DNA of 64,000 nt. Source: an uncultured Gemmatimonadales bacterium (GTDB lineage Bacteria; Gemmatimonadota; Gemmatimonadetes; JACCXV01; JAHWKZ01). The notes below the pieces were generated by a model. It saw only the letters and a program-made list of their open reading frames with translations. It ran no database searches and had not been told where the DNA came from. The stretch spans positions 62,001-126,000 of the forward strand of contig CAMYLR010000019.1 in assembly GCA_947259315.1 (NCBI GenBank), written 5' to 3'. The position numbers and the translations under genes are program-made. Positions 60,478 to 61,415 of this stretch are shown here, in pieces (the first letter of the stretch is position 1; each line of letters opens with the position of its first letter).

Positions 60478-60822
60478 TCACTGCTCCGTGGTGTGGGACC
60501 AGACAAACCCTTCTTGTTCAGGATCGTAGATCCAGATCTTGTGCCAAGGTTCGCCTCGTGCCTCGCCGCCTAGCACTCGAAGGTCCGGGTGACCGTCCCC
60601 GTCGACATCAGTCAACTCAGTAGCGCCTGGTTCCGACGGATTGATGCTGTTGCGAACCTCGATGATCTGAACGACGGCCCGGTCTTCCTTCCGAATCACA
60701 TCGAGCTCGTAATTCATGTCTTGCTGGTGGCGCACCTGGATCTCGTGACTTGGCTGATTCACGCCGTCGGTACAATCGATGGCTAACAGAACCGCGCATA
60801 TCGTCAACGCCTGCCTATTCAT
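60478..60822 (-). CDS. Small exported protein with FG-GAP-like calcium loop
   Basis: The 114-residue product from ATG 60822, preceded by AGGAAACGGG, has a hydrophobic start and Cys near residue 17 (AIDC, a poor lipobox). The mature part contains LTDVDGDGHPDLRVLGGEAR, an FG-GAP/VCBS-type DxDxDG loop, then IWIYDPEQEGFVWS, resembling XAC2610-type repeat proteins. Its ATG overlaps the TGA of the AhpD-like gene, so the two are coupled. The function is unknown. Confidence 0.75.
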   Translation of the reverse strand: MNRQALTICAVLLAIDCTDGVNQPSHEIQVRHQQDMNYELDVIRKEDRAVVQIIEVRNSINPSEPGATELTDVDGDGHPDLRVLGGEARGEPWHKIWIYDPEQEGFVWSHTTEQ

Positions 60823-61415
60823 CCCGTTTCCTTTGGCGTGCCACCCCACGTAGGAATAAACGTCTCCGCCTCGACGCCCAACGCGTCGGCGATGCGGCTG
60901 ATGTAGTTGAAGTAACCGATCACTTGGACCGCGTCGTGTATCGCATCATCACCAAGTCCGTGCTCCCGCAGCGCATCCAGGTCCGCGGGTGCCATATCGT
61001 GTTGCTGGTGGGTCAGCTTGGTCGCGAACACACAAAGCTCGCGATCAACTTCTGACAACCGAGCTGAGCGCCAATCTCTCGCTACCGCATGCACGTAGGC
61101 ATCGGCCTCATCTCCCGCCGTGAACTGATCCGCGATCTCTTCCCGGAGATCGTTGGCATGGGCTTGCGTTCAATAGTGACAGTCGAGCTCGGAGGAAACA
61201 ACGGTCGCCAAGAGCTCTCGCTGTGCGCGCGTTAGCGGCGACCGGCCGCGCATTATGTCGATGTACAACCGCATGCTCGACTCCAGTACGCGCGGGTTGA
61301 GGCTCATGATGTGAACGATGTTCCACACCCGACCGGCACGACGGATGGCGGCATCGAAATGCTCGCGCAGCCGACCGGTAGCGTGGTCGATCGGAACTTG
61401 GTGAATCCAAGGCAT
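60819..61415 (-). CDS. AhpD-like peroxidase-related protein, probable selenoprotein (CxxU)
   Basis: The frame runs from ATG 61415 to the TGA at 60819, with one internal in-frame TGA at 61170-61172 read here as selenocysteine (198 residues). The N-terminal half (NIVHIMSLNPRVLE, LTRAQRELLATVVSSELDCH) and the C-terminal half (GLGDDAIHDAVQVIGYFNYI, then SRIADALGVEAE) are both typical of the peroxidase-related AhpD/CMD family. In that family the active site is CxxCxxxH. Here it reads Cys79-His-Tyr-TGA82-Thr-Gln-Ala-His86, so the TGA replaces exactly the second redox Cys. A 7-bp hairpin follows at SECIS distance. No frameshift or other damage is seen. A nonsense mutation is the alternative. SelA/SelB/tRNA-Sec are not in the window. 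Confidence 0.82.
61133..61152 (-). promoter_or_regulatory. Bacterial SECIS-like hairpin
   Basis: On the coding strand, 17 nt after the in-frame TGA, CGATCTC (61152-61146) pairs perfectly with GAGATCG (61139-61133) around the loop CGGGAA. The loop begins 24 nt after the TGA and has G at its second position. Known bacterial SECIS elements have the apical loop about 16-37 nt after UGA and a G among the first loop bases. The stem also codes for conserved residues, so chance pairing cannot be excluded. Confidence 0.75.

Follow-up and report, generated by a model that had tools for sequence, protein, structure and literature searches.

Within the window, the 64,000-nt stretch of DNA analysed here, we found a gene for an AhpD-like protein (198 residues; TIGR01926, PF02627) on the minus strand at 60819-61415. 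The gene runs from an ATG at 61415-61413 to a final TGA at 60821-60819 and, when TGA is read as selenocysteine (Sec), comprises 198 codons, of which just one, that of residue 82, is an in-frame TGA (61170-61172, minus strand). This codon occupies the second CxxC position (CHYU) of the sequence DCHYUTQAHAND, giving a CxxUxxxH motif at residues 79-86 (C79-H-Y-U82-T-Q-A-H86); it is conserved in TGA-bearing relatives, and Cys stands at its place in distant ones. A preliminary description of this DNA had reported one continuous frame with a single TGA at the second Cys of CxxCxxxH; both statements hold, and the strand, which it did not give, is now specified as minus. Read on the plus strand, in the frame as given for 60819-61415, the interval contains many stops and is non-coding. 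The expectation that gene callers would split the gene was also correct: ordinary calling yields pieces of 81 and 91 aa.

Upstream lies an amidase gene (PF01425; 61425-62981, minus strand), whose stop codon is 9 nt before the AhpD-like start, and the two genes are probably co-transcribed. Downstream, the ATG of a small lipoprotein-like ORF (60478-60822, minus strand; no Pfam match) overlaps the AhpD-like stop codon (ATGA). Among 19 relatives examined, the upstream amidase and a downstream VOC-like gene are kept only in a same-genus genome, and we rejected a conserved operon because neighbours differ outside the genus. The operon context, offered in the preliminary description as an argument for novelty, is therefore a weak one, as these neighbours are shared with only one species of the same genus; their confinement to the genus also means that the neighbourhood says little about function. 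When the window was scanned for further in-frame TGAs within redox motifs, with a filter for 90 open codons upstream, only unconvincing frames came back; since this filter would miss the AhpD-like gene itself (81 residues upstream), the scan is no negative for short genes.

Family assignment and predicted fold

Profile searches support the earlier placement of the sequence around the TGA in the AhpD/CMD family: the protein scores 120.4 bits against TIGR01926 (peroxidase-related enzyme; cut-off 81.8) and 44.8 bits against Pfam CMD (cut-off 23). All 26 members of a homologue alignment (A1) likewise match TIGR01926, and E67, C79, Y81, U82 (written C) and H86 are invariant in these 26 homologues. 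In line with the family criterion, Glu stands 12 residues before and His 4 residues after the CxxC, here CxxU. The protein is also homologous to NF041238 (AhpD_rel_CFYUT, alkylhydroperoxidase-related (seleno)protein), with which it shares the CxxU motif region; it is nevertheless a non-member, as only the second half of that model is matched, at 76 bits vs a curated cut-off of 175.

The AlphaFold model, in which Cys was written for Sec, is predicted confidently, with a pLDDT of 89.5, and consists entirely of helices, as the criterion for the AhpD fold asks. Its best PDB match is 6k40, the AhpD-like protein DR_1765 of D. radiodurans (TM 0.81/0.86), and further matches are other 'peroxidase-related' structures. 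DR_1765 resembles the protein here in fold, length and the place of CxxC, with 34% identity in the structural alignment, but has Cys at the second CxxC position where the gene here has Sec; D. radiodurans tolerates H2O2 less well when this Cys homologue is mutated (PMC8945050). M. tuberculosis AhpD, although distant in sequence, spaces Glu118, Cys130, Cys133 and His137 as E67, C79, U82 and H86 are spaced here, with Sec replacing Cys133 and Tyr81 replacing His132. The same spacing as E67-C79-Y81-U82-H86 is found in the proton relay of the AhpD protein PA0269, Glu36-Cys48-Tyr50-Cys51-His55 (PMC3141380).

Selenocysteine machinery and conservation of the TGA

The genome containing the window is a draft of 2.4 Mb in 33 contigs, 96% complete. 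The preliminary description had made its reading depend on selA, selB and a tRNA-Sec gene being present and had proposed a search for these and selD; our search recovered every one of them: the tRNA-Sec scores 75 bits and has a UCA anticodon by ARAGORN, and selA (472 bits), selB (372 bits) and selD (366 bits) each exceed the curated cut-off. Neither selA nor selB contains an internal TGA. The selD gene (G000:C6:214406-215329, minus strand) encodes a selenoprotein too: its own in-frame TGA falls in CAGUASKLSP, at what we take to be the position of the catalytic Cys/Sec of the SelD family. Sec decoding is common in the class, selB being found in 36 of 41 relatives, and many genomes of the class hold two TGA-containing AhpD-like genes. 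Here the second AhpD-like gene (G000:C31:85203-85739, minus strand) has its in-frame TGA at the same motif, in NDCHYULLHH, and carries a SECIS-like hairpin unlike that of the window gene, ACGGAG-CGGGU-CUCCGU; a third CMD-family gene of the same genome (G000:C3:48161-48394, minus strand) has an in-frame TGA in CPFUIDINAA, that is, CxxU with Asn for His.

We found the TGA at the identical position in 54/54 TGA-bearing relatives inspected (same class and MAGs). In an alignment of 34 rows, made up of the window gene, 32 relatives (three MAGs from an independent collection are included) and the second copy from the same genome, it occupies the same column throughout (34/34), which bears out the earlier argument that an ordinary nonsense mutation would be unlikely to hit this codon by chance. 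At 21 further loci the TGA was read by motif and lies in the same one; because some of these loci were found by the TGA-containing motif, they are of more use to the comparison of hairpins than to the codon test. The unbiased count is a class-wide search of 394 genomes (E below 1e-40), which gave 73 matches with the TGA in all but one, the exception being a fragment whose first residue is 83, directly past the codon. The comparison with Cys-containing homologues that had been proposed placed Cys at the TGA site in more distant genes of the class, as CTYCTLHH (two genomes) and as CAYCLASH and CDYCLAHH (others).

Relative to the same-genus gene (86% identity), dN/dS is about 0.06 before the TGA and about 0.11 after it. 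By these ratios, the sequence is under purifying selection upstream as well as downstream of the TGA, and the low value after it therefore indicates that the downstream part is translated.

A SECIS-like hairpin downstream of the TGA

A SECIS-like hairpin, CGAUCUC-CGGGAA-GAGAUCG (61133-61152, minus strand), begins 17 nt after the TGA. Published criteria for bacterial SECIS elements (bSECIS) comprise a loop of 3-9 nt, a stem of 4-16 bp, a G in the first two loop positions, a distance of 16-37 nt from the UGA and an energy of -7.5 kcal/mol or lower (PMC13188914). The hairpin agrees with this model in each respect, with a 6-nt loop (CGGGAA), a 7-bp stem, an apical loop 24 nt after the TGA and an energy of -8.4 kcal/mol when folded alone; -7.5 kcal/mol is reached by 41 of the 47 homologue hairpins.

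Some folds of the single sequence count against this reading. The hairpin lies within the predicted structure when 40-54 or 70 nt are folded, and at 60 or 87 nt it is 0.6 kcal/mol above the optimum. Over the 60 nt after the TGA, the fold is no stabler than shuffles (z -0.10) and the hairpin is absent from the best structure. Single-sequence folding was therefore replaced by a comparison of 47 close homologues, on which we rely. All six core pairs form in 46 of them, the best result when stem position and loop size were varied over 513 combinations; the next-best position, leaving aside the same stem shifted by one base, reached 6/47. As the homologues are related and hence non-independent, these hairpin counts are descriptive.

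One pair, which joins the third, silent position of the Asp89 codon to the first position of codon 94, covaries from T-A to C-G; its T-A version occurs in the window's genus and in another clade, and the pair is broken (C-C) in a single sequence. Codon usage in the hairpin is also constrained. The Leu90 codon is CTC in 47/47 homologues, whereas at other invariant Leu codons of the same genes the commonest codon accounts for only 35-54% of sequences. Arg91 is encoded by CGG or CGT only and never by CGC, the window's commonest Arg codon, which fits the bacterial SECIS model of G followed by G or U in the loop (PMC13188914). An Rfam search of the window gave no match, a result that carries no information on bacterial SECIS here.

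In distant members, including the second copy in the same genome, a hairpin of the form ACGGAG-NGGNU-CUCCGU lies nearer the TGA. Given this difference in register between the distant subgroup and that of the window, the SECIS-like element seems, from the sequences compared, to have moved within one family.

Interpretation and relation to known AhpD-like selenoproteins

Taken together, the Sec machinery in the genome, the conserved TGA, the SECIS-like hairpin and the purifying selection on both sides make it highly likely, on sequence grounds, that the gene encodes a true selenoprotein in the AhpD-like, peroxidase-related family (TIGR01926, CMD superfamily). The same four observations lead us to reject a pseudogene, a sequencing error and a general code change. 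A nonsense change of TGC or TGT, by error or by mutation, needs a single base, and Cys relatives do exist, but we give this explanation almost no credence: an error or a recent mutation would not occupy one column class-wide, the same TGA recurs in dozens of separately assembled genomes, selection persists downstream of it and the hairpin is conserved. Equally implausible is that this organism reads TGA generally as a sense codon; nothing speaks for this beyond the in-frame TGA. Of 33 long, non-overlapping ORFs mechanically called in the window, 12 end in TGA, as does the AhpD-like gene itself; the interiors of selA and selB are TGA-free, and in close relatives this one codon alone is TGA, save in a few where another lies at the frame's very end.

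The function of a Sec-inserting gene leaves more room. By analogy with its characterized relatives, the product is very probably a Sec-containing AhpD-type peroxidase or reductase. A role other than peroxide reduction, for example as a selenol-dependent reductase or dehalogenase-like enzyme, is a less likely but appreciable alternative, to which several points lend themselves: the superfamily includes the debrominase Bmp8, whose structure (6ohi) also turned up in the fold search as a weaker match (E 1.6e-5), the neighbours (amidase, VOC protein) are not antioxidant genes, and little is known of what AhpD-like proteins act on (PMC3141380). Against it stands D. radiodurans AhpD (6k40), which of the characterized relatives is the closest in both structure and sequence; cells that lack it become more sensitive to H2O2 (PMC8945050). 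Within the sampled class, all close homologues that cover the codon have Sec and Cys is absent from them, a pattern that would point to a substrate poorly handled by a thiol; that the protein is the Sec enzyme of a clade-specific redox step other than peroxide defence nonetheless appears rather improbable to us.

For the favoured Sec-containing peroxidase or reductase, we propose that SelB with Sec-tRNA(Sec) would bind the hairpin and insert Sec co-translationally at UGA82, and that the protein would fold as an all-helical AhpD domain. The U82 selenolate and C79 may then form a redox pair, present as a selenenylsulfide when oxidized and assisted by E67 (at the proton acceptor position), Y81 and H86. 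Judging from Cys relatives, the substrate that the enzyme reduces might be a peroxide or a partner protein, for instance a peroxiredoxin or an OsmC-like one.

AhpD-like selenoproteins with CxxU were reported from the Sargasso Sea in 2005 (27 sequences, COG2128; PMC1088965), from genomes in 2006 (PMC1794560) and from GOS data in 2008 (299 AhpD-like 1 and 70 AhpD-like 2 sequences; PMC2398784), and a review of 2026 also includes TIGR01926 with CxxU (PMC13188914). TIGR01926 and COG2128 are treated here, as taken from these papers, as the same group. The gene matches this family (COG2128 / TIGR01926; Sargasso AhpD-like, GOS AhpD-like 1) in scoring over the model's cut-off, in the Sec position and in the downstream bSECIS-type hairpin, and differs from it in lineage and locus; we found no difference in kind. 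Of the 'probable new selenoprotein' in the preliminary description, the selenoprotein therefore stands, and the novelty does not, as a kind, given that the CxxU AhpD-like family has been described since 2005; the gene is a well-supported addition to a known family. Knowledge of AhpD-like selenoproteins as a kind is thus unchanged. What the locus provides is a Sec gene that standard calling splits, in an uncultured lineage where Sec decoding is common, which helps to correct annotation, and a deep, clean alignment of a bacterial SECIS that displays both silent-site constraint and covariation.
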